Shown: one piece after another, positions 16,032 through 30,208 of the stretch | Layout of the letters: each line of letters opens with the position of its first letter | Position numbering within the stretch: the first letter of the stretch is position 1 | Source of the DNA: Zavarzinia marina | GTDB taxonomy: Bacteria > Pseudomonadota > Alphaproteobacteria > Zavarziniales > Zavarziniaceae | Assembly (NCBI RefSeq): GCF_021568905.1 | Contig: NZ_JAKGSB010000004.1 | Coordinates: 124,001 to 188,000, forward strand | DNA: 64,000 nt | Reading direction: 5' to 3' | The notes under the pieces: model-generated | Databases searched by the model: none | What the model saw: the letters and a program-made list of their open reading frames with translations, nothing else | Told to the model about the DNA's origin: nothing | Translations under genes and position numbers: made by a program

Positions 16032-16128
16032 TGGCACCCCCGGCAGGACTCGAACCTGCATACGGCCGAGTGGAGTTGAACAACCGAGTCTGGCTTATGA
16101 GACCAGACGGGCCGCCGGGCCTCCCCGC
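16032..16128 (-). tRNA. tRNA-like element with CAT anticodon arm (degenerate?)
   Basis: Read leftward, the 3' half is well formed: T arm GCAGG-TTCGAGT-CCTGC, then CGGGGGT, G, CCA (16032-16034). An anticodon arm CTGGT-CTCATAA-GCCAG gives anticodon CAT (16097-16099), as in Met or Ile2 tRNAs. Between them lies an unusually long variable region of about 28 bases containing GTTG/CAAC. A D-arm-like GGCC-CGGC-GGCC is present, but the 5' acceptor strand expected to pair with CGGGGGT is not found. It is either a decayed tRNA or a non-canonical one. Confidence 0.45.
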
Positions 16129-16329
16129 CGAAAAAGCCTTGCGCGGGCCGGGCTTGATACCGGCTACGGCTTTCCCGCCCTGCGCAGAGCGGGGATGCAG
16201 AGGCGCCGAGTTTACGGCTTGTTGGCCTGTCGTTGACGGCCCCCGATGGAGATTGCCCCTACCGTGCAGGCGCGCGTGTCCATCCACGCCGCCGCGCAAG
16301 TTCGTGCCCGCCGCGAGAGCGAGGGAATA

Positions 16330-16403
16330 TGGCACAGGCGGCAGGAGTCGAACCCGCACCCCCGATTTTGGAGACCGGTGCTCTACCATTGAGCTACGCC
16401 CAT
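16330..16403 (-). tRNA. tRNA-Trp (CCA), prophage-encoded
   Basis: 74 bases with all arms: acceptor ATGGGCG/CGCCTGT with encoded CCA, D arm GCTC-GAGC, anticodon arm CCGGT-CTCCAAA-ATCGG (anticodon CCA) and T arm GCGGG-TTCGACT-CCTGC. It lies inside the prophage, and its 5' end overlaps the last 21 bases of the methyltransferase-like gene. About 200 bases separating it from the tRNA-like element to the left (16129-16329) hold no supported gene. Confidence 0.85.
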
Positions 16404-17264: not shown

Positions 17265-17280
17265 TAGGATGGTTCCTATT
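17263..17280. promoter_or_regulatory. Repressor operator, near-perfect copy
   Basis: AATAGGATGGTTCCTATT differs from the perfect palindrome AATAGGAACGTTCCTATT at the two central-left bases. It overlaps the -35 box of the leftward promoter and lies 35 bases before the repressor ATG. Confidence 0.65.
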
Positions 17281-17315: not shown

Positions 17316-18287
17316 ATGGAAATGGACCCTGCCCGCAATTTGCTGCTCGGCCTCATGGCAAAGGCGGGCGCCACCTATGCTGAGTTGTCCCGCCTCGTCG
17401 GGAAGAACGACACCTACATTCAGCAGTACATCACCAAGGGCTCTCCGGTAGAATTGGGCGAACAGCAGCGAGAGCTATTGGGGGAACATTTCGGCGTTGA
17501 CCCCGATCTGTTCCGACGATCTGACCACCCGAAAAGAATTGCCGCCGCTGCATCATCCGAAGACGAGCCGGCGCCCGCTCCGCACATGAATCGTGTCGCC
17601 ACCGAAATCGAGCGCCGCATGACCCGGCTGGGGTCGAACCCCAAGCGCCTGGCCAAGGAGGCCGGCCTGGGCGAAACCGCCGTCCGGGACATCCTGAAGG
17701 GCATCTCGGATTCACCCCGGGTCAGCACCCTGACGAAACTCGCCAAGGCGCTGGGCTGCACCGTCGCGGACCTGACGGGCGAGAGCGCGATCGAGCCCCG
17801 CCGCCTCTCCGCGTCGCGTGTCGAGGAACGCGAGCGGGATGACTTGGAACCGAATATTTCGATCGACGAGCTGGACGTGGCGGCGGGGAACGCTTCCGGC
17901 GGACAGATCCACGAGCGGAACGACACCGACTATGGCGAGCGCGTGGTGGCGCGCTGGGAGGTGCCGACGAATGTTCTCAGGGCCTACACCAGCGCGCCGG
18001 CGGCCAGCCTGAAGGTCATCACATGCGTCGGAGATTCGAATGAGCCGGCGCTCATGCCCGGCCAACGGGTACTGGTCGATCTCGACCAGAGGCTCCCCTC
18101 GCCCCCCGGCTTTTTCGCGATATGGGATGGCGTGGGGGAGATCATCAAGCGACTTGAGGTCATCCACGGCTCCGATCCGGTCCGCGTCATCGTCCGATCC
18201 GCCAATCCCGCCTATGAGCCTTACGAACGCCTACTCGCGGACCTCGTCATCAATGGCCGCGTCATCGGCAAGTGGCAATGGACGTGA
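17316..18287 (+). CDS. CI/LexA-type prophage repressor with two HTH domains
   Basis: 323 residues. Residues 1-70 form one helix-turn-helix (TYAELSRLVGKNDTYIQQYITKG) and residues 90-155 a second (NPKRLAKEAGLGETAVRDILKG, LTKLAKALGCTVADLTG). The C-terminus from about 215 is an S24/LexA peptidase domain: the serine lies in CVGDSNEPALMPGQRVLVD and the general-base lysine in GEIIKRLEV. Such repressors cleave themselves on SOS induction, releasing the prophage. No clear Ala-Gly cleavage pair is obvious except near AAGNASGG. Operators lie on both sides of the gene. Confidence 0.85.
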   Translation: MEMDPARNLLLGLMAKAGATYAELSRLVGKNDTYIQQYITKGSPVELGEQQRELLGEHFGVDPDLFRRSDHPKRIAAAASSEDEPAPAPHMNRVATEIERRMTRLGSNPKRLAKEAGLGETAVRDILKGISDSPRVSTLTKLAKALGCTVADLTGESAIEPRRLSASRVEERERDDLEPNISIDELDVAAGNASGGQIHERNDTDYGERVVARWEVPTNVLRAYTSAPAASLKVITCVGDSNEPALMPGQRVLVDLDQRLPSPPGFFAIWDGVGEIIKRLEVIHGSDPVRVIVRSANPAYEPYERLLADLVINGRVIGKWQWT

Positions 18288-18300
18288 ACGCCCGGCGCCC

Positions 18301-18546
18301 TCACCCCTCAATCACCCGACCAAGGCTCGTCGCTAGCCCGTAGGCCCGCACCGCACCGGCCGGCGGCTCGACCTCGATCCAGACCAGGCGCGGGTTGTGG
18401 CCGGGCAATGGCGACGCATGGTCCGCCAGCACAGCAACGCGCAGGACGCCGGCGCCATCCACGATCAGGTGGCGCTCGCCGGGTCGGTGCCGACAGAGAG
18501 CGGGATCGGCCCTGACCGGCCCCTCCCCCACATTTGCAGTCAGCAA
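18301..18546 (-). CDS. Small hypothetical protein, coupled to exported protein gene
   Basis: 81 residues from a TTG at 18546 that overlaps the end of the upstream 80-aa gene. The sequence shows GERHLIVDGAGVLRVAVLADHASPL, PRLVWIEVEPPAGAVRAYGLATSLGRVIEG, plausible as a small beta/alpha protein. No ribosome-binding site is visible, so translation would depend on coupling. It converges on the repressor gene and fills the gap between that gene and the exported protein. Moderate support only. Confidence 0.4.
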   Translation of the reverse strand: MLTANVGEGPVRADPALCRHRPGERHLIVDGAGVLRVAVLADHASPLPGHNPRLVWIEVEPPAGAVRAYGLATSLGRVIEG

Positions 18547-18782
18547 AGCCGACCGATACCGCAGTTCGAGCCGCGATAGGGGCTATGGGTGCCGGGCTTT
18601 CCCGTGTAGGGGTTCACGTTCCCCTGGGTCGAATAGTTGTCGTAGGGATTTCCATTCGGGGACGACCGATGGTGCCCCTGCACGTAGGTACCGTCATTGC
18701 GGAAATAGCCGTTAACCCACTGATCGGCCATGGCCGGCGCGGCGGCAAGGCCTAGCGCCACGCCCAGAAAAATCGCTCGCAT
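18540..18782 (-). CDS. Small exported prophage protein
   Basis: 80 residues. MRAIFLGVALGLAAAPAMA is a clear signal peptide with an AMA cleavage site. The mature part (DQWVNGYFRNDGTYVQGHHRSSPNGNPYDNYSTQGNVNPYTGKPG) is aromatic, glycine and asparagine rich, with a conserved GYFRxDGTYV...H.R pattern known from small envelope proteins of proteobacteria. It is transcribed leftward from the region holding the two perfect repressor operators, opposite the early operon. This invites a role in lysogenic conversion or exclusion, which is inference. Confidence 0.6.
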   Translation of the reverse strand: MRAIFLGVALGLAAAPAMADQWVNGYFRNDGTYVQGHHRSSPNGNPYDNYSTQGNVNPYTGKPGTHSPYRGSNCGIGRLC

Positions 18783-18837
18783 CGCAACCTCCCAACCAAT
18801 GCGCGAATGAGGGTACGCACTGGGCGAAATTCCGTCC

Positions 18838-18855
18838 AATAGGAACGTTCCTATT
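18838..18855. promoter_or_regulatory. Repressor operator, perfect palindrome
   Basis: AATAGGAACGTTCCTATT, an exact 18-base palindrome, between the exported-protein gene and the early operon. Confidence 0.75.
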
Positions 18856-18868
18856 TTTCCCATTGCGT

Positions 18869-18886
18869 AATAGGAACGTTCCTATT
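18869..18886. promoter_or_regulatory. Repressor operator, perfect palindrome
   Basis: A second exact copy of AATAGGAACGTTCCTATT. Centres of the two copies are 31 bases apart, close to three helical turns, so dimers would bind on the same face and could cooperate. Control of the rightward early operon starting at 18918 is expected. Confidence 0.75.
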
Positions 18887-18917
18887 AGCATCATCCCCAT
18901 CACCACAGGGGATGACC

Positions 18918-19127
18918 ATGACCAAAGACGCCGCCCGCACCATCCAGACCAGCCGCTCCCATCTGCCGGGCAATCCGGGCGCTTATGCCCGCAGCATGTC
19001 GGCCGGCATCCGCTCCGCGCTGTCGGCCCGCACCGCCAAGGCGATCCGCGCCGCGATCATCGAGGACGGGGCCGAGGTCCATTTCGTCGGGCTCGCCACG
19101 GGCTGCCCCGTTGCGGTGGAGGCCTGA
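18918..19127 (+). CDS. First gene of early operon, unknown function
   Basis: 69 residues from ATG 18918, preceded by AGGGGATG; ATG 18912 has no spacing to a ribosome-binding site. The protein starts MTKDAARTIQTSRSHLPGNPGAYARSM and continues with a basic alanine-rich helix (AGIRSALSARTAKAIRAAII) and a short beta end (EVHFVGLATGCPVAVEA). It directly follows the twin operators, so it is repressed in the lysogen. No family recognised. Confidence 0.5.
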   Translation: MTKDAARTIQTSRSHLPGNPGAYARSMSAGIRSALSARTAKAIRAAIIEDGAEVHFVGLATGCPVAVEA

Positions 19128-19129
19128 CC

Positions 19130-20410
19130 ATGACCGCCGCCGAAACCGCCGCAACCCCTGCGCCGGCCCTGACGATCACCCTCGCCAAGATCCGGTCTTG
19201 GGGCGCCTGCGCTGATGGCCGCGACTGGTTCCGCGCCCGCTTTCCCGAGAAGGAGGGCGCCTCTTACGCCGCAGTCATGGCGGCCCTGACCGAAGATCGG
19301 CGGACCGGGGACGCCCAATGGCTGGCTGACGCGATTTTTGCCGACCTCCTGAAGGAGCCGGGGCAGATCGCAACCCAATTCGTCGCCGGCAGTGACACCG
19401 AAGTGGATGCGGTGATCGAGGCGACCAAGCCTCAACCCGTCGACGCAGCTAAGGTCGAGACTTCGGGGCCGCTCAACGACAATGGCGGCTACGGCGCCCG
19501 GATCGGCAGCAGCGGCAACGACGCCCGGATCGGCAGCAGCGGCAACGACGCCCGGATCGGCAGCAGCGGCAACCACGCCCAGATCGGCAGCAGCGGCAAC
19601 GACGCCCAGATCGGCAGCAGCGGCTACGGCGCCCGGATCGGCAGCAGCGGCTACGGCGCCCGGATCGGCAGCAGCGGCAACGACGCCCAGATCGGCAGCA
19701 GCGGCTACGGCGCCCAGATCGGCAGCAGCGGCTACGGCGCCCGGATCGGCAGCAGCGGCTACGACGCCCGGATCGGCAGCAGCGGCAACGACGCCCAGAT
19801 CGGCAGCAGCGGCTACGGCGCCCGGATCGGCAGCAGCGGCAACGACGCCCGGATCGGCAGCAGCGGCTACGGCGCCCGGATCGGCAGCAGCGGCAACGAC
19901 GCCCAGATCGGCAGCAGCGGCTACGGCGCCTGGATCGGCAGCAGCGGCAACCACGCCCAGATCGGCAGCAGCGGCAACGACGCCCGGATCGGCAGCAGCG
20001 GCTACGGCGCCCGGATCGGCAGCAGCGGCAACCACGCCCAGATCGGCAGCAGCGGCGACGACGCCCAGATCGGCAGCAGCGGCTACGGCGCCCGGATCGG
20101 CAGCAGCGGCGACGACGCCCGGATCGGCAGCAGCGGCGACGACGCCCGGATCGGCAGCAGCGGCGACGACGCCCGGATCGGCAGCAGCGGCGACGACGCC
20201 CGGATCGTGGCGACCGGGCGGAATGCCGCCATCGCGTGCGTCTGCCCCGGCGCTCGCGCCCGGGCGGCGGACGGCGGCTTCATTGCCCTCGCGTGGCACG
20301 ACGGCGAGCGCCCCCGCATCGCTGTCGGATATGTCGGCGAAACCATCAAGGCCGACACTTGGTACGCCGTCGACAGCACCACCGGCGCGCTGATTGAAGT
20401 GGAGGCCTAA
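19130..20410 (+). CDS. Early protein with 26 x 9-residue beta-helix-like repeats
   Basis: 426 residues. An N-terminal domain of about 115 residues (IRSWGACADGRDWFRARFPEKEG, YAAVMAAL, WLADAIFADLL) is followed by 26 consecutive copies of a nine-residue unit I-G-S-S-G-x-x-A-(R/Q/W), then IVATG and a C-terminal cap (FIALAWHDGERPRIAVGYVGE, TWYAVDSTTGALIEVE). Regular short hydrophobic/Gly/Ser repeats of this sort usually form a beta-solenoid. ATG 19130 was preferred over the longer open frame from 18863, which crosses operators and another gene. Function unknown; an adhesive, DNA-mimic or inhibitor role would be guesswork. Confidence 0.6.
   Translation: MTAAETAATPAPALTITLAKIRSWGACADGRDWFRARFPEKEGASYAAVMAALTEDRRTGDAQWLADAIFADLLKEPGQIATQFVAGSDTEVDAVIEATKPQPVDAAKVETSGPLNDNGGYGARIGSSGNDARIGSSGNDARIGSSGNHAQIGSSGNDAQIGSSGYGARIGSSGYGARIGSSGNDAQIGSSGYGAQIGSSGYGARIGSSGYDARIGSSGNDAQIGSSGYGARIGSSGNDARIGSSGYGARIGSSGNDAQIGSSGYGAWIGSSGNHAQIGSSGNDARIGSSGYGARIGSSGNHAQIGSSGDDAQIGSSGYGARIGSSGDDARIGSSGDDARIGSSGDDARIGSSGDDARIVATGRNAAIACVCPGARARAADGGFIALAWHDGERPRIAVGYVGETIKADTWYAVDSTTGALIEVEA
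19502..20203 (+). repeat. Tandem repeat, 27 bp x 26 copies
   Basis: 702 bases made of exactly 26 units of ATCGGCAGCAGCGGC plus three variable codons and GCC. Variation is almost limited to codon 6 (AAC, TAC or GAC), codon 7 (GAC, GGC or CAC) and codon 9 (CGG, CAG, once TGG). The remaining codons are invariant down to the wobble base, a sign of recent expansion or gene conversion. Confidence 0.9.
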
Positions 20411-21586: not shown

Positions 21587-21780
21587 TGCTGACCGTCTCT
21601 GACCTCGCTTCTGTCTACTGGCGGTCCTGCCAAGACATGCGCCACGGCAACGACGCCAAGCGTCCCCTCGCCGCCGCCAACATCATCGGGCTCGCCCATG
21701 GCAAGGGGCCGGTGGCGGAGCGGGCACGGGCGGCCTCCGGCGAGGCGGCGGGCATTCTCAACAACAGCGACGCGGCGTGA
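21586..21780 (+). CDS. Small early protein, unknown
   Basis: 64 residues from ATG 21586, after GGAGGGAG. Sequence MLTVSDLASVYWRSCQDMRHGNDAKRP, then an alanine-rich helix (AAANIIGLAHG, VAERARAASGEAAGIL). Coupled to the previous gene by TGATG and ending nine bases before the Gp157 start. No domain recognised. Confidence 0.45.
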   Translation: MLTVSDLASVYWRSCQDMRHGNDAKRPLAAANIIGLAHGKGPVAERARAASGEAAGILNNSDAA

Positions 21781-21788
21781 GGTCCGAT

Positions 21789-22310
21789 ATGGGAAAGAAG
21801 CGCACACCCGATGCAGAGCGCGACCTTGTCAAGGAATTGGCGGCGGCTCGAATCCTCCGGGAAAGCCTCAAGGATTTCGGGGACGACGAAGACCTGATCC
21901 GAGACACCGTCGAGGGCGAGACCGACCTTCACGAGGCCATCGCGGCGGTCATCCATTCCATGGACGAAGACCAGATCATCGTTGATGGGATCGCGGTCAG
22001 GATCGACGCCCTCAAGGCTCGCCTGGATGCAGCCAAGGATCGCATCGGCCGCAAGCGGGCGCTGATCGAGCAGGCCATGACAATCGGCGAAATCAAGACG
22101 TTGCGTCTGCCCGAGGTAACACTGACCGTTTCCTCTACCCCGCGCACCGTCGACGTCACCGACGAGACCCTGATCCCGTCGCGGTTCTGGAAGCCTAAAG
22201 ACCCGACTCTCGACCGGGCGGCCCTGACGGAAGCCCTCAAGGGTGGCGAAGAAATCGAAGGTGCGCGGCTCGACAACGGCGGCATCAAGCTTACCATCCG
22301 GAGACAGTGA
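21789..22310 (+). CDS. Siphovirus Gp157-family protein
   Basis: 173 residues from ATG 21789 (GAGG six bases upstream). An N-terminal coiled coil (DGIAVRIDALKARLDAAKDRIGRKRALIEQAM) leads into the family signature: LRLPEVTLTVSSTPRTVDVTDE, IPSRFWKPKDPTLDRAALTEALKGGEEIEGARL, and NGGIKLTI at the end. Gp157 proteins are early phage proteins next to recombinases; one member has been linked to resistance of the host against phage. The gene ends one base before the Bet start, so the pair is likely co-produced. Confidence 0.75.
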   Translation: MGKKRTPDAERDLVKELAAARILRESLKDFGDDEDLIRDTVEGETDLHEAIAAVIHSMDEDQIIVDGIAVRIDALKARLDAAKDRIGRKRALIEQAMTIGEIKTLRLPEVTLTVSSTPRTVDVTDETLIPSRFWKPKDPTLDRAALTEALKGGEEIEGARLDNGGIKLTIRRQ

Positions 22311-22311
22311 A

Positions 22312-23277
22312 ATGAACCAGATCGCGACCATCGGGCGGCCGGGCGGCTTGCCGACGCTTAACGGAAATCAACTCGGCCTGGTGAGGCGAACCGTCGCCGC
22401 AGACCTGACGAACGACGAATTCGACATGTTCATCGTCATCGCCAATCGCGCTGGCCTCGACCCGTTCAAGAAGCAGATCCACGCCGTCGTCTACAACAAG
22501 AAGAACCCGGACAAGCGGAAGGTTTCCTTCATTACCGGCATCGACGGCTACCGCGCCATCGCCGCCCGCTCGGGCACCTATCGGCCGGACGAAGATCCGC
22601 CCCGCGTGGTAATCAGTGACGACCTCAAGAACCCCGATACCAACCCGCTCGGTATCGACTACGCCGATGTGACGGTCTGGCAGTACGGCGCCGACAAGGC
22701 GTGGCACAAGGTCACCGCCCGCGCCTATTGGGAGGAATACGCCCCCCTCAAGGAAGAGTGGCACGAGAACCGGGAAACCGGTCGTCGGGAACCGTCGGGG
22801 ATTTTTCGCCTGGATACGTCAGGAAACTGGGGCCGGATGCCCCGCCTGATGATCGCCAAGGTTGCCGAGGCCAATGCGCTTCGGAAGGGCTGGCCGGAAG
22901 ACCTCGGGGGGCTTTACGTCGACGCCGAAATGGACCGGGCGGGGATGATCGACATCACCCCTTCGGCTGTGGTCGAGAATGACGAGAGGGAGCGTCGGAT
23001 GGCCCTGATCGGCGGCGACGGAATCCTTGTCGCCTTCGATGAAACCGAAGGTCTCAAGTCCGTTCCCATCGGCCAGTTTGCCGACCGTTGCCTCGCATTC
23101 ATTCGCTCGTGCCCGAACAGCGGTACCCTCGCGTGGTGGCAGTCCTTCAATCGCGCCGGGCTCCAACAGTTCTGGGGCAAGAGCAAGGCCGACGCACTCG
23201 AAGTGAAGAAGGCGATCGAGGCGCGGGCCGACGAATTGGCGCAAGCCGAGGCCAACCAGGAAGCGGAGGCGCAGTAA
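22312..23277 (+). CDS. Bet/RecT-family single-strand annealing protein
   Basis: 321 residues from ATG 22312. The Bet signature is clear: NDEFDMFIVIANRAGLDPFKKQIHAVVY, VSFITGIDGYRAIAARSGTY, AWHKVTARAYWEEYAP, and WGRMPRLMIAKVAEANALRKGWPEDLGGLY. The protein anneals complementary single strands during recombination-dependent phage replication. The C-terminal 100 residues (FADRCLAFIRSCPNSGTLAWWQSF...) are less typical, ending in a charged helix. No exonuclease partner is encoded nearby; an SSB gene follows after four bases. Confidence 0.85.
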   Translation: MNQIATIGRPGGLPTLNGNQLGLVRRTVAADLTNDEFDMFIVIANRAGLDPFKKQIHAVVYNKKNPDKRKVSFITGIDGYRAIAARSGTYRPDEDPPRVVISDDLKNPDTNPLGIDYADVTVWQYGADKAWHKVTARAYWEEYAPLKEEWHENRETGRREPSGIFRLDTSGNWGRMPRLMIAKVAEANALRKGWPEDLGGLYVDAEMDRAGMIDITPSAVVENDERERRMALIGGDGILVAFDETEGLKSVPIGQFADRCLAFIRSCPNSGTLAWWQSFNRAGLQQFWGKSKADALEVKKAIEARADELAQAEANQEAEAQ

Positions 23278-23281
23278 CGCC

Positions 23282-23734
23282 ATGTCCAGCGTGAACAAGG
23301 CAACAATCCTGGGCAATCTCGGGCGCGATCCCGAGACCCGGTCCATGCAGGACGGAACGCAGATCGTCTCCCTCTCCGTCGCTACCTCCCAGACATGGAA
23401 GGACAAAAACACGGGTGAACGGCGCGAGGCGACCGAATGGCACCGCGTGGTGATCTTCAACGAGGGCTTGGGGAAGATCGCCGTCCAGTACCTCCGCAAG
23501 GGCAGCAAGGTCTACCTGGAAGGCGAGATCAAAACCCGGAAGTGGCAGGACCAGGGCGGGCAGGACCGCTATTCGACCGAGATCGTGCTGGGCCGGTTCG
23601 GCGGCGCGCTCGTGTTGCTCGACGGCAGGCAGGATGGCGGGGAAGAGCGACAGACGACGGGCGATGGATCGTTGGGAGGGTATCAGCCGGGGAAGGCTGG
23701 TCCACTCGATGACCTCGACAGCATTCCATTTTAG
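23282..23734 (+). CDS. ssb: Single-stranded DNA-binding protein
   Basis: 150 residues. Complete OB-fold: NKATILGNLGRDPETR, IVSLSVATSQTWKDKNTGERREATEWHRVVIF, YLRKGSKVYLEGEIKTRKW, and YSTEIVLG. The C-terminal acidic tip DDLDSIPF, used to recruit partners, is present. Length is slightly below typical host SSB. Placed just after Bet, consistent with annealing-based recombination. Confidence 0.9.
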   Translation: MSSVNKATILGNLGRDPETRSMQDGTQIVSLSVATSQTWKDKNTGERREATEWHRVVIFNEGLGKIAVQYLRKGSKVYLEGEIKTRKWQDQGGQDRYSTEIVLGRFGGALVLLDGRQDGGEERQTTGDGSLGGYQPGKAGPLDDLDSIPF

Positions 23735-27872: not shown

Positions 27873-28064
27873 ATGAAATCCGCCTCGATCACCGCCGTCA
27901 GCCGCGCCATCGCCGCGATGCGGAAGCACGGCATCCCCATCGGCGGTGTTCGCATCCGGCCCGACGGGTCGGTTGACATCTTGACGGAGGCGCCAACCGA
28001 GGCGCCAGATGATGATCTTGACGCGGAGCTGGAGCAATGGAGACGGAAGGTTGGCAAAGGTTGA
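27873..28064 (+). CDS. Small protein before integrase, excisionase-position
   Basis: 63 residues. KSASITAVSRAIAAMRKHGIPIGGVRIRPDGSVDILTEAP has the pattern of short alphaproteobacterial phage proteins that directly precede integrases. Position suggests a recombination directionality factor, though a winged helix is not certain. Its last 14 bases overlap the chosen integrase start. Confidence 0.5.
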   Translation: MKSASITAVSRAIAAMRKHGIPIGGVRIRPDGSVDILTEAPTEAPDDDLDAELEQWRRKVGKG

Positions 28065-29106
28065 TCTTGAATCCGTCCACCGCGTCACGGCGCGCGGCAA
28101 GGTCTATTACTACGCATGGCGCGGCAAAGGCGCCCCCCGCCTCCACGCGAAGCCGGGTACGAAAGCCTTTGTGGAGGAACTGGCCGAAGCCCTGAGGGGG
28201 CGGCGAGAACCCGACACGAGCCGGCTGACCGGCGTCATCGCTTCCTACAAGGCAAGCCACTATTGGCAGAAGCTGGCGCCGACGACGCGCGCCGCATGGG
28301 GCCTCTGGCTCGACCGGATCGACGAGCATTTCGGCAAGTTGACGATCCGCCAATTCGATCGACCGCAGATCCGACCGGACATCATCGCGTGGCGCGATGG
28401 ATGGGCGCACAAGCCGCGATCGGCCGACATGGCCATCCAGGTGCTGTCGCGCCTTCTGGCGTTCGCCGTGTCGCCCAAGGGCCTCATTCTGACGAACCCC
28501 TGCATCGGTCTGGACCAACTCTATGAGGTCGATCGGTCGTCCATCGTCTGGGCCGCAGCCGACTTCGCGCGCCTGGAGGCCATCGCATCGCCCGAGGTAT
28601 TCGCGGCGGCGCGCCTGGCGGCCCTGACGGGACTTCGGCGGGGCGACGTGCTGCGCCTGTCATGGTCGCACGTCGGGCCGCTGGCGATCGAGATGCGGAC
28701 GGCGAAGAGCGGCGGGCGGCGAACCGCGCTGATCCCGCTCTACGCCGAACTCCGCGACTTCCTCGATCACACGCCCAGGGCAGCGACGACGGTGCTGGTC
28801 AACAGCCACGGCCGCCCATGGGGATCGGGCTTTTCCGCGAGCTGGCAGCGCACGATCAAGCGCGCCGGCCTCGATCTCCATTTCCACGATTTGCGCGGCA
28901 CCGCCGCGACACGCCTCTATGTCGCTGGCTTCAAAAACCGCGAGATCGCGGAGATCCTGGGCTGGGGAGAGGATAGCGTCGAGCGGCTCATTGACCGTTA
29001 CGTCAAGCGGGACGAACTGATTCTGGACCGCATCAGGCGTCTCGATCAGAACACCAGCGGAACGAGCCCTGTAAAACGCCCTGTAAAACGCCCTGTGGAC
29101 AAGTGA
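28051..29106 (+). CDS. int: Tyrosine integrase
   Basis: 351 residues. A TTG at 28051 with GGAAGG upstream gives the typical N-terminus (AKVDLESVHRVTARGKVYYYAWRGKGAP); an ATG frame from 28009 would add unrelated residues. SAM-like core-binding domain at about 55-165. Catalytic residues: Arg in ALTGLRRGDVLRL, Lys in RTAKSGGRR, HxxR in HFHDLRGTAA, the late His/Trp position in LGWGEDSVERL, and Tyr in IDRYVKRD. It ends ten bases before the tRNA-Pro 3' end, the attachment site. Confidence 0.9.
   Translation: MAKVDLESVHRVTARGKVYYYAWRGKGAPRLHAKPGTKAFVEELAEALRGRREPDTSRLTGVIASYKASHYWQKLAPTTRAAWGLWLDRIDEHFGKLTIRQFDRPQIRPDIIAWRDGWAHKPRSADMAIQVLSRLLAFAVSPKGLILTNPCIGLDQLYEVDRSSIVWAAADFARLEAIASPEVFAAARLAALTGLRRGDVLRLSWSHVGPLAIEMRTAKSGGRRTALIPLYAELRDFLDHTPRAATTVLVNSHGRPWGSGFSASWQRTIKRAGLDLHFHDLRGTAATRLYVAGFKNREIAEILGWGEDSVERLIDRYVKRDELILDRIRRLDQNTSGTSPVKRPVKRPVDK
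29067..29100 (+). repeat. 12-bp tandem repeat in integrase 3' end
   Basis: CCCTGTAAAACG occurs at 29067-29078 and 29079-29090, and CCCTGTGGAC follows. It encodes a PVKRPVKRPVDK tail and lies within 50 bases of the attachment site, so it might serve as arm-type binding sites. Confidence 0.45.
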
Positions 29107-29115
29107 GCTAAGTAT

Positions 29116-29192
29116 TGGTCGGGGCGACAGGATTCGAACCTGCGACTTCTTGCTCCCAAAGCAAGCGCTCTACCAGGCTGAGCTACGCCCCG
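29116..29192 (-). tRNA. tRNA-Pro (TGG), prophage attachment site
   Basis: 77 bases with encoded CCA. Acceptor CGGGGCG/CGCCCCG, anticodon arm CTTGC-TTTGGGA-GCAAG (TGG), T arm GCAGG-TTCGAAT-CCTGT. Its 3' end faces the integrase gene, so the phage entered at the 3' end and restored the gene. The matching att repeat should lie beyond the left window edge. Confidence 0.9.
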
Positions 29193-29257: not shown

Positions 29258-29317
29258 GGAGCGGATGGGGATGGGGCTTGCGGTGTCCGGACTTCGCCGT
29301 CATCATGCGCGCTTCTT

Positions 29318-29407
29318 CACCAGGGGGAGCCGGAGCGCCGGCTGAGAGGTTCCACGCGGAACGACCCCTAGAACCTGATCCGGTTCATGCCGGCGTAGGG
29401 ATGGGTG
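29318..29407 (+). promoter_or_regulatory. TPP riboswitch (THI element)
   Basis: The core sequences GGCTGAGA, GACCCCTAGAACCTGATC and CCGGCGTAGGGATG are the invariant parts of thiamine pyrophosphate aptamers. P1 can form from CACC (29318-29321) and GGTG (29404-29407), P2 from GAGCCGG/CCGGCT. P1 contains the only purine-rich ribosome-binding stretch (GGGATGGG) before ATG 29414, which suggests translational repression when TPP is bound. Confidence 0.9.
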
Positions 29408-29413
29408 TTTCCT

Positions 29414-30208
29414 ATGGTCGATTCCGACCGGCCGGCCGATGCCGGCGTCCGCGTCATCATTTCCGCGTCGCGCCCTGCGACCGCCCCCGGCATCGCCGTG
29501 CGCGGGGCGGGCCTGCGCTTCGAGGCCCAGGTCCATTTCGAGGGCCTGGATCTGGACCTGGCGGGCGGCGAGACCACCTGCCTTCTCGGGCCGAGCGGAG
29601 TCGGCAAGTCGAGCCTGCTGCGCCTCCTGGCGGGGCTGCCGACGGCGGGACTGGGCGGCACGGTGAGCGCCGGCGACGGCCGGCCGCTGGCCGGGCGGAC
29701 CGCGCTGATGGCGCAGCACGACAATCTCCTGCCCTGGGCCAGCGTGCTCGACAATGTGATGCTGGGCGACCGCCTGCGCGGCGACGCGCCGGACGCGCCC
29801 CGCGCCCACGCCTTGTTGGCGCAACTGGGGCTTTCGACGGCGGCGGGTCTGCGGCCGACGGCGCTGTCGGGCGGCATGCGCCAGCGCGCCGCGCTCGCGC
29901 GCACGCTCTACGAGGATTGCCCGATCGTCCTGATGGACGAACCCTTCTCCGCCCTCGACGCCGTCACCCGCCACCGCCTGCAGGGCGAGACGGCCGGCGT
30001 GTTGGCGGGGCGCACCGTGCTGCTGGTGACCCATGATCCGCTGGAGGCGCTGCGCCTCGGCCATCATGTGCTGGTGCTGTCGGGCCGGCCCGCGCGCCTG
30101 CGCCAGGTGACGCCGCCGCCGGGCGACGTACCGCGCGCCGCGGGCGATCCCGCCCTGGCGTCGGCGCAGGATGCGCTGTTCGCCGCCCTTTCCAGCGAGG
30201 GGGCGTGA
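29414..30208 (+). CDS. thiZ: Thiamine-precursor ABC transporter, ATP-binding protein
   Basis: 264 residues from ATG 29414. Walker A LLGPSGVGKSSLLRLLAG, Q loop TALMAQHDNLLPW, signature LSGGMRQRAALAR, Walker B IVLMDEPFSALDA and switch His in LLVTHDPLEAL. The LLPWASVLDNV pattern is typical of the nitrate/taurine/pyrimidine transporter group. TPP riboswitch control and the downstream NMT1-type binding protein identify it as ThiZ, energising uptake of a pyrimidine precursor of thiamine. N-terminal 25 residues are an unstructured extension. Confidence 0.85.
   Translation: MVDSDRPADAGVRVIISASRPATAPGIAVRGAGLRFEAQVHFEGLDLDLAGGETTCLLGPSGVGKSSLLRLLAGLPTAGLGGTVSAGDGRPLAGRTALMAQHDNLLPWASVLDNVMLGDRLRGDAPDAPRAHALLAQLGLSTAAGLRPTALSGGMRQRAALARTLYEDCPIVLMDEPFSALDAVTRHRLQGETAGVLAGRTVLLVTHDPLEALRLGHHVLVLSGRPARLRQVTPPPGDVPRAAGDPALASAQDALFAALSSEGA

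Follow-up and report, generated by a model that had tools for sequence, protein, structure and literature searches.

A repeat gene in an early prophage operon

The window, i.e., the whole 64,000-nucleotide stretch of Zavarzinia marina DNA analysed here, carries a repeat gene that is second in a tightly packed run of plus-strand genes leading toward Gp157, RecT, and SSB (Table 1). Terminase and capsid genes lie at the left of the window on the minus strand, and an integrase gene sits beside tRNA-Pro; together they identify a temperate prophage. A TPP riboswitch (window 29313-29419, + strand) follows just past tRNA-Pro and the integrase, so host DNA probably starts there. The CI-like repressor matches HTH_3 at 6.1e-10, and its Peptidase_S24 match (E 0.0044) is below the S24 cut-off. 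Three operator sites with at most two mismatches occur in the window, against 0.02 expected by chance. Scans for promoters and terminators detected none. From this gene layout, the repeat gene is predicted to act early in infection under operator control. The preliminary description had already placed it in a repressor-controlled early operon, and the operators, the HTH/S24 repressor, the Gp157/RecT/SSB genes, and the similar surroundings of its relatives all argue for that placement.

Several minor features accompany the operon. A divergent ORF of 107 aa (window 18540-18863, - strand; no Pfam match) has an inner methionine followed by a signal-peptide-like stretch, and it may share the operator control because its start lies within the operator region. 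Within the prophage, tRNA-Met(cat) (16060-16132) and tRNA-Trp(cca) (16330-16403) are predicted on the minus strand, of which only tRNA-Trp(cca) reached the Rfam threshold.

Table 1. Features of the early region and of the repeat gene (window positions)
Feature	Position	Strand	Basis
Diverged operator copy, 2 mismatches, between repressor gene and divergent ORF	17265..17278	.	Palindrome scan
CI-like repressor; HTH_3 in the middle, weak Peptidase_S24 at the C-terminus	17316..18287	+	Pfam
Operator palindrome TAGGAACGTTCCTA, exact, 14-bp	18840..18853	.	Palindrome scan
Second operator palindrome TAGGAACGTTCCTA, exact, 14-bp	18871..18884	.	Palindrome scan
Early operon gene 1, 71 aa, no Pfam match	18912..19127	+	ORF list, Pfam
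Repeat gene, protein P0001, 426 aa	19130..20410	+	Uninterrupted ORF
N-terminal helical domain, YdhT type, W-x-A-C-x-D-G-x-x-W-F...FP..G..Y	19172..19423	+	Alignments, AlphaFold helices
Array, 26 x 27 bp units IGSSGxxA[RQW], variable codons 6, 7, 9	19502..20203	+	Unit count
Cap unit and C-terminal domain (FIALAWHDGERPRIAVGYVGETIKADTWY...)	20204..20407	+	Alignment; pLDDT
Siphovirus Gp157 family protein	21777..22310	+	Pfam 1.5e-19
RecT recombinase	22315..23277	+	Pfam 5.6e-26
Single-strand binding protein (SSB)	23282..23734	+	Pfam 1.1e-33
Phage integrase adjoining tRNA-Pro (29116-29192)	28009..29106	+	Likely prophage end

The 26-unit array

In P0001, the array is preceded by a helical N-terminal domain and followed by a C-terminal one. 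Tandem Repeats Finder reported 26.8 copies of period 27 with 0% indels at 19485-20207, and the register that begins with ATC gives exactly 26 consecutive units, which encode residues 125-358. All 26 units read ATC GGC AGC AGC GGC.. GCC., with codons 1-5 and 8 invariant at every base. The variation lies in codon 6 (AAC 11, TAC 10, GAC 5), codon 7 (GAC 14, GGC 9, CAC 3), and codon 9 (CGG 16, CAG 9, TGG 1), which combine into nine unit types. This regularity cannot be explained by chance. The preliminary description was correct in giving 26 units of 27 bp that vary in three codons only. Its alphabets for codons 7 (GAC/GGC/CAC) and 9 (CGG/CAG/TGG) also hold, but the NAC that it gave for codon 6 is too wide, as CAC never occurs there. 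Diverged units flank the array, NDNGGYGAR before and IVATGRNAA after. An antisense frame (window 18983-20299, - strand) stays open for 438 aa over the array and is probably a by-product of the repeated 27-bp unit.

Relatives and their genomic surroundings

Phage records include homologues that cover most of the protein. In Edwardsiella phage GF-2, the gene (52% identity) lies directly 3' of a putative N antiterminator, and in Komagataeibacter phage phiKX1 it lies directly 3' of an antirepressor gene. The GF-2 homologue is annotated as "collagen-like protein", and names of this kind, together with PHROG repeat matches to tail fibres, would suggest a surface adhesin or a tail fibre. We consider this very improbable and set the tail-fibre reading aside, as the gene is located in an early operon and not in the structural region. 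The Pfam collagen score of 21 bits also remains below the cut-off of 27.2, and the unit IGSSGxxAx lacks a glycine at each third residue.

Many relatives carry DUF7666 (PF24703) in place of the YdhT-type N-terminal domain and keep the array and the C-terminal domain. In a scan of 10 relatives, DUF7666 was above the cut-off in six (loci L013, L014, L022, L023, L024, and L026) and absent from the four of YdhT type; a further locus, L093, has a weak match (29.6 bits vs 27). In P0001 itself, Pfam searches up to E 10 gave no PF24703 match and listed only Collagen. Searches with the YdhT-type N-terminal domain retrieved 19 viral loci and 11 genome-contig loci, the latter mainly from acetic acid bacteria, plus Achromobacter and Rhodovarius. 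The domain is rare near the host, occurring in one of seven family genomes and one of 385 genomes drawn from the class. Both hits are the window's own, so that none of the six other family genomes and none of the 384 other class genomes has it. Pfam matches in 105 neighbouring ORFs of 13 loci included HTH_3 (9), RecT (4), S24 (3), CII (2), N peptide (2), and YqaJ (2). Judged by these matches, the neighbours of the relatives are early control and recombination genes.

Three further observations concern the surroundings and records of relatives. Pentapeptide-repeat genes lie 5' of the array gene in L093 (one, L093:1182-1760) and L099 (two, L099:613-1521 and 1660-2541); they differ in repeat number, so that this early region holds another variable solenoid besides the array. 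The records of L010 and of many viral contigs (e.g., L075/L100 and L085/L101) start or stop within the array, and the BF1-TP2 record begins inside the gene, with a shortened annotated ORF; array genes in contigs broken in this way are probably under-annotated. A relative in Paracoccus phage Shpa (L009:4917-5972) consists almost entirely of nine-residue units of the ITSTGDRA type, in which synonymous variation and core variation are both greater than in the homogenised arrays.

Homogenised units with three diversified codons

Nine-residue arrays were sought in 147 sequences (146 loci and the window). An array was present in 108 of them. The analysis retained 86 distinct arrays, each with five or more core-intact units; many arrays come from metagenomic or short-read contigs, in which repeats can be misassembled. 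The six constant positions show 64 private combinations of synonymous codons among the 86 arrays; this diversity of skeletons indicates that the arrays were homogenised separately. No synonymous variant was found among the core-intact units of 62 arrays, whereas codons 6, 7, and 9 show two or more amino-acid changes in each of the 86.

These three codons were defined on the window, and the test then covered 63 other arrays, each representing a different skeleton other than the window's. Minimum changes were counted in units with an intact amino-acid core only; the test describes recently homogenised arrays and omits degenerate ones (such as E. coli YdhT, Proteus, and Paenibacillus pSC2). Codons 6, 7, and 9 held 2 synonymous and 257 amino-acid changes (0.020 vs 0.550 per site), and the constant codons had 0.085 synonymous changes per site. 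The corresponding binomial value, 3.4e-19, assumes independent changes and gives an order of magnitude only. The amino-acid excess was absent from both sets of control arrays, which have the same period. RTX-like arrays of the same genome had synonymous change at least equal to amino-acid change (1.65 and 1.02 vs 1.42 and 0.99 per site, in the two of four loci with enough units), and three degenerate YdhT/DUF7666 relatives had 3.7-4.5 synonymous vs 2.3-2.6 amino-acid changes per site. When the diverged end units and all nine codons were counted, synonymous change exceeded amino-acid change per site in three of nine phage arrays (L047, L068, and L082), which limits the excess to the core units and the three codons. 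At the level of sequence, it is evident that the 27-bp units are homogenised within each phage and that codons 6, 7, and 9 hold nearly all variation of the core units.

The array could instead be a low-constraint spacer, i.e., a repeat that expanded recently and simply tolerates change at three codons. Recent expansion is real, as most arrays lack synonymous variation, but tolerance alone predicts similar synonymous and amino-acid rates per site, which differ here by the margin given above. The alphabets are also narrow and recur across arrays. Among the 86 arrays, codon 6 encodes mainly D, Y, N, and H (in 77, 73, 42, and 16 arrays), codon 7 mainly Y, S, D, and G (in 70, 55, 23, and 21), and codon 9 mainly Q, K, and R (in 77, 44, and 37). 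We therefore regard the spacer as unlikely. Residues such as Y, S, D, G, N, and H are common in binding surfaces such as antibody loops. The preliminary description had proposed a tunable surface whose residues are free to change. The codon statistics strongly support the tunable surface, with the exposure of these residues predicted from the structural models, but freedom to change does not fit the restricted alphabets, which look selected.

Confinement of the variation to fixed codons, with codon 6 of most arrays being NAC or NAT and thus encoding D, Y, N, or H, might also be expected if a diversity-generating retroelement or another targeted mutator wrote the variable codons. However, third bases hardly vary (at codon 6, they are mixed within 3 of 85 arrays), and no second copy of the repeat gene was found in the genome. 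The host genome also has 0 reverse transcriptase matches (PF00078), which speaks against a retroelement. Targeted writing of the codons thus has very little probability.

Array turnover in close pairs

Comparison of closely related loci demonstrates that the number and order of units in an array turn over more rapidly than the flanking sequence. The arrays of L034 and L035 differ by two units, with 0 mismatches in 6231 and 5604 bp of flanking sequence. In L130 and L131, 3000 bp downstream are without mismatch and the end-anchored array has 5 mismatches in 405 bp; four of the five changed codons are at positions 6, 7, or 9, and the remaining change is synonymous, at codon 3. The constant codons themselves differ between L010 and L023, which are 94% identical over 400 bp downstream and show 32 synonymous codon differences over nine end-anchored units, a pattern that would arise if the two arrays had expanded anew from different units. 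A comparable event appears in a published laboratory evolution study of Serratia symbiotica, which lists a 54-bp deletion in ydhT_1 at 782,372, within a 48-kb, mitomycin C-responsive prophage that starts at 771,733 (PMC12505973). Judged by its length, the deletion would correspond to two units. That copy number changes by recombination, as first proposed, is supported by L034/L035 and by a further pair, L093 and L099. Prophages that are otherwise nearly identical can thus have reshuffled or rewritten arrays, in which the same three codons vary.

In the flanks of L093 and L099, the 696 bp compared upstream contain 1 mismatch and the 2757 bp compared downstream contain 37. Their arrays, of 22 and 18 units, share a longest common run of 2 units (shuffle mean 2.44) and show 28 codon differences when anchored at the start or 24 when anchored at the end, all at codons 6, 7, and 9 and none synonymous. 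The two loci share a genome id, and this coexistence of near-identical flanks with different arrays is consistent with the main rival explanation, a self-sorting scaffold. In such a scaffold, the solenoid would assemble with itself, and the variable positions, as each phage's own register or partner code, would keep the proteins of co-resident prophages apart. Like residues at codons 6 and 7 also show a weak excess at lag 3 (z 2.4) and a deficit at lag 4 (z -2.9) in 66 arrays, which would fit the stacking of like residues. However, this signal is one of many tests and possibly stems from block duplication. Self-sorting is accordingly an improbable explanation, if the strongest of the competing ones.

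Predicted structure of the array

AlphaFold2 models were obtained for P0001 (21-row alignment; mean pLDDT 69.7, pTM 0.43) and the homologue L030 (mean pLDDT 73.0, pTM 0.50). In both, the N-terminal domain is helical, and most pLDDT values of this domain and of the C-terminal domain exceed 80. In P0001, the N-terminal helices fall within residues 18-98, with pLDDT block means of 83-95 over residues 11-70, and block means from residue 371 on are 80-93. The pLDDT of the array is lower, about 46-75, and both models place one short strand in every nine residues, with codons 9, 1, 2, and 3 in the strand and codons 4-8 in the turn. The array is predicted with moderate confidence to be a beta-solenoid, in which codons 6, 7, and 9 are expected to face outward because they alternate with the conserved isoleucine and alanine. 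The solenoid suggested in the preliminary description is thus recovered in two models, at moderate confidence only, and the array was not predicted to be disordered.

A right-handed parallel beta-helix is among the structural matches of the P0001 model (Z 18.6, rmsd 2.9, 269 residues), but other folds lead for L030. In the VIA structural lists, pectate-lyase-type helices rank at the top for one model, and SufB and CAP, with pentapeptide proteins lower down, lead for the other. In Foldseek, neither model matched a PDB structure at E below 0.001, and PDB sequence searches with whole-protein, N-terminal, and C-terminal profiles gave nothing convincing. As the two models resemble different solenoids, no coil geometry is claimed. 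The first model and the lag-3 signal give only a hint of a 27-residue coil; the two countable indels (L034/L035 and, judged by length, the Serratia 54-bp deletion) comprise two units, not three.

A solenoid in an early operon would also fit a nucleic-acid mimic or binder, by analogy with the pentapeptide-repeat gyrase inhibitors Qnr and MfpA. The L030 model aligns with QnrB1, EfsQnr, and MfpA at Z 6.7-7.5, and pentapeptide-repeat genes precede the array gene in L093 and L099. However, Z values in this range are common for repeats, and a DNA mimic should be consistently acidic, whereas the net charge per unit has a median of 0.00 in 66 arrays (26 negative, 30 positive). The charge does not fit a DNA mimic, and we consider a role of this kind decidedly unlikely.

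A putative intracellular recognition array

The reading that we favour, at a probability of roughly 0.5 with a host or competitor target included, is a hypervariable intracellular binding array that is homogenised by recombination and diversified by selection in the manner of the fungal HNWD proteins. P0001 would be a rod-like, early cytoplasmic phage protein built from an N-terminal partner module, a beta-solenoid of nine-residue units, and a capping C-terminal domain, and codons 6, 7, and 9, on the modelled exposed turn and strand, would form a repeated binding surface. Unequal recombination between units would supply copy-number changes and new combinations, and selection would keep the composition of the binding surface diverse. 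By analogy with HNWD, the order of the units and the three residues in each may set the specificity, and what happens to a bound partner may depend on the exchangeable N-terminal module. After derepression, the protein would bind and neutralise or titrate a variable factor of the host cell or of a competitor, which is the least certain step. Candidate targets are a defence, exclusion, or regulatory component, and the diversity of the array would track that of its target. The preliminary description is thus borne out in part, and its view of diversification is strengthened.

Known hypervariable phage proteins are mostly receptor-binding parts of the virion, such as retroelement targets and invertible tail fibres. 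Here the diversity sits in an early intracellular protein, which would suggest that the partner, too, is intracellular and evolves fast. For an early gene this diverse, a target in the host or in a competitor is, we infer, the simplest explanation. Members of the family are readily recognised by the three-codon signature, and the array is a natural repeat scaffold with defined variable positions.

Comparison with known systems

By an alignment that spans YdhT and takes in the N-terminal domain, the nine-residue repeats, and the C-terminal domain, P0001 is a relative of E. coli YdhT (NF007410; E 4.9e-62, 209.9 bits, below the 300-bit cut-off). The two differ in setting, since YdhT is a chromosomal gene adjoining ydhYVWX (ydhYVWXUT oxidoreductase operon, L020) and P0001 belongs to an early phage operon, and in their arrays, which are degenerate in YdhT and homogenised in the phages. 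E. coli ydhT is near-universal, as 5362 of 5426 genomes have a match that covers 80% or more of it, and its array is degenerate; one member of the family, at least, thus has a role that does not involve turnover of the array. The DUF7666 phage proteins (e.g., L013, L022, L023, and L024) have a nine-residue array and a C-terminal domain like those of P0001. The family is already known by name (YdhT, DUF7666) without a function. In the open-access literature searched, we found no account of its function, YdhT included, of the evolution of its arrays, or of its placement in phage early operons.

Other repeat families share single features with P0001, but the RTX and pentapeptide readings were set aside. 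RTX repeats, with the consensus GGxGxDxUx, have the same nine-residue period, but the unit GSSGxxA[RQ]I lacks that consensus. No RTX Pfam match was found up to E 10, and the NCBIfam RTX model scored 29.9 bits, far below its cut-off of 1000. Pentapeptide-repeat proteins are likewise phage-borne solenoids, with a period of five residues instead of nine, and P0001 has no PF00805 match up to E 10. PADLOC models returned 0 families for all four proteins searched, up to E 1.

The closest parallel in mode of evolution comes from the WD-repeats of Podospora anserina HNWD proteins, which act in fungal non-self recognition. Their near-identical repeats undergo concerted evolution and vary in copy number, and in each repeat four fixed codons on the surface are under diversifying selection (PMC2873952). 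The phage arrays likewise show diversifying change at fixed codons of homogenised repeats, at positions whose exposure is predicted from the models. The fold and the organism are unrelated, and HNWD has a known recognition role, whereas recognition by the phage array is suggested by analogy. More tentatively, and with less than even confidence, temperate phages of several phyla may share a modular class of early intracellular hypervariable recognition solenoids, with swappable N-terminal modules and with units that recombination continually homogenises while three exposed residues diversify, which would give each prophage a binding specificity of its own without a dedicated mutator. Such a class, if true, would be the phage counterpart of repeat-based recognition in fungi and vertebrates.
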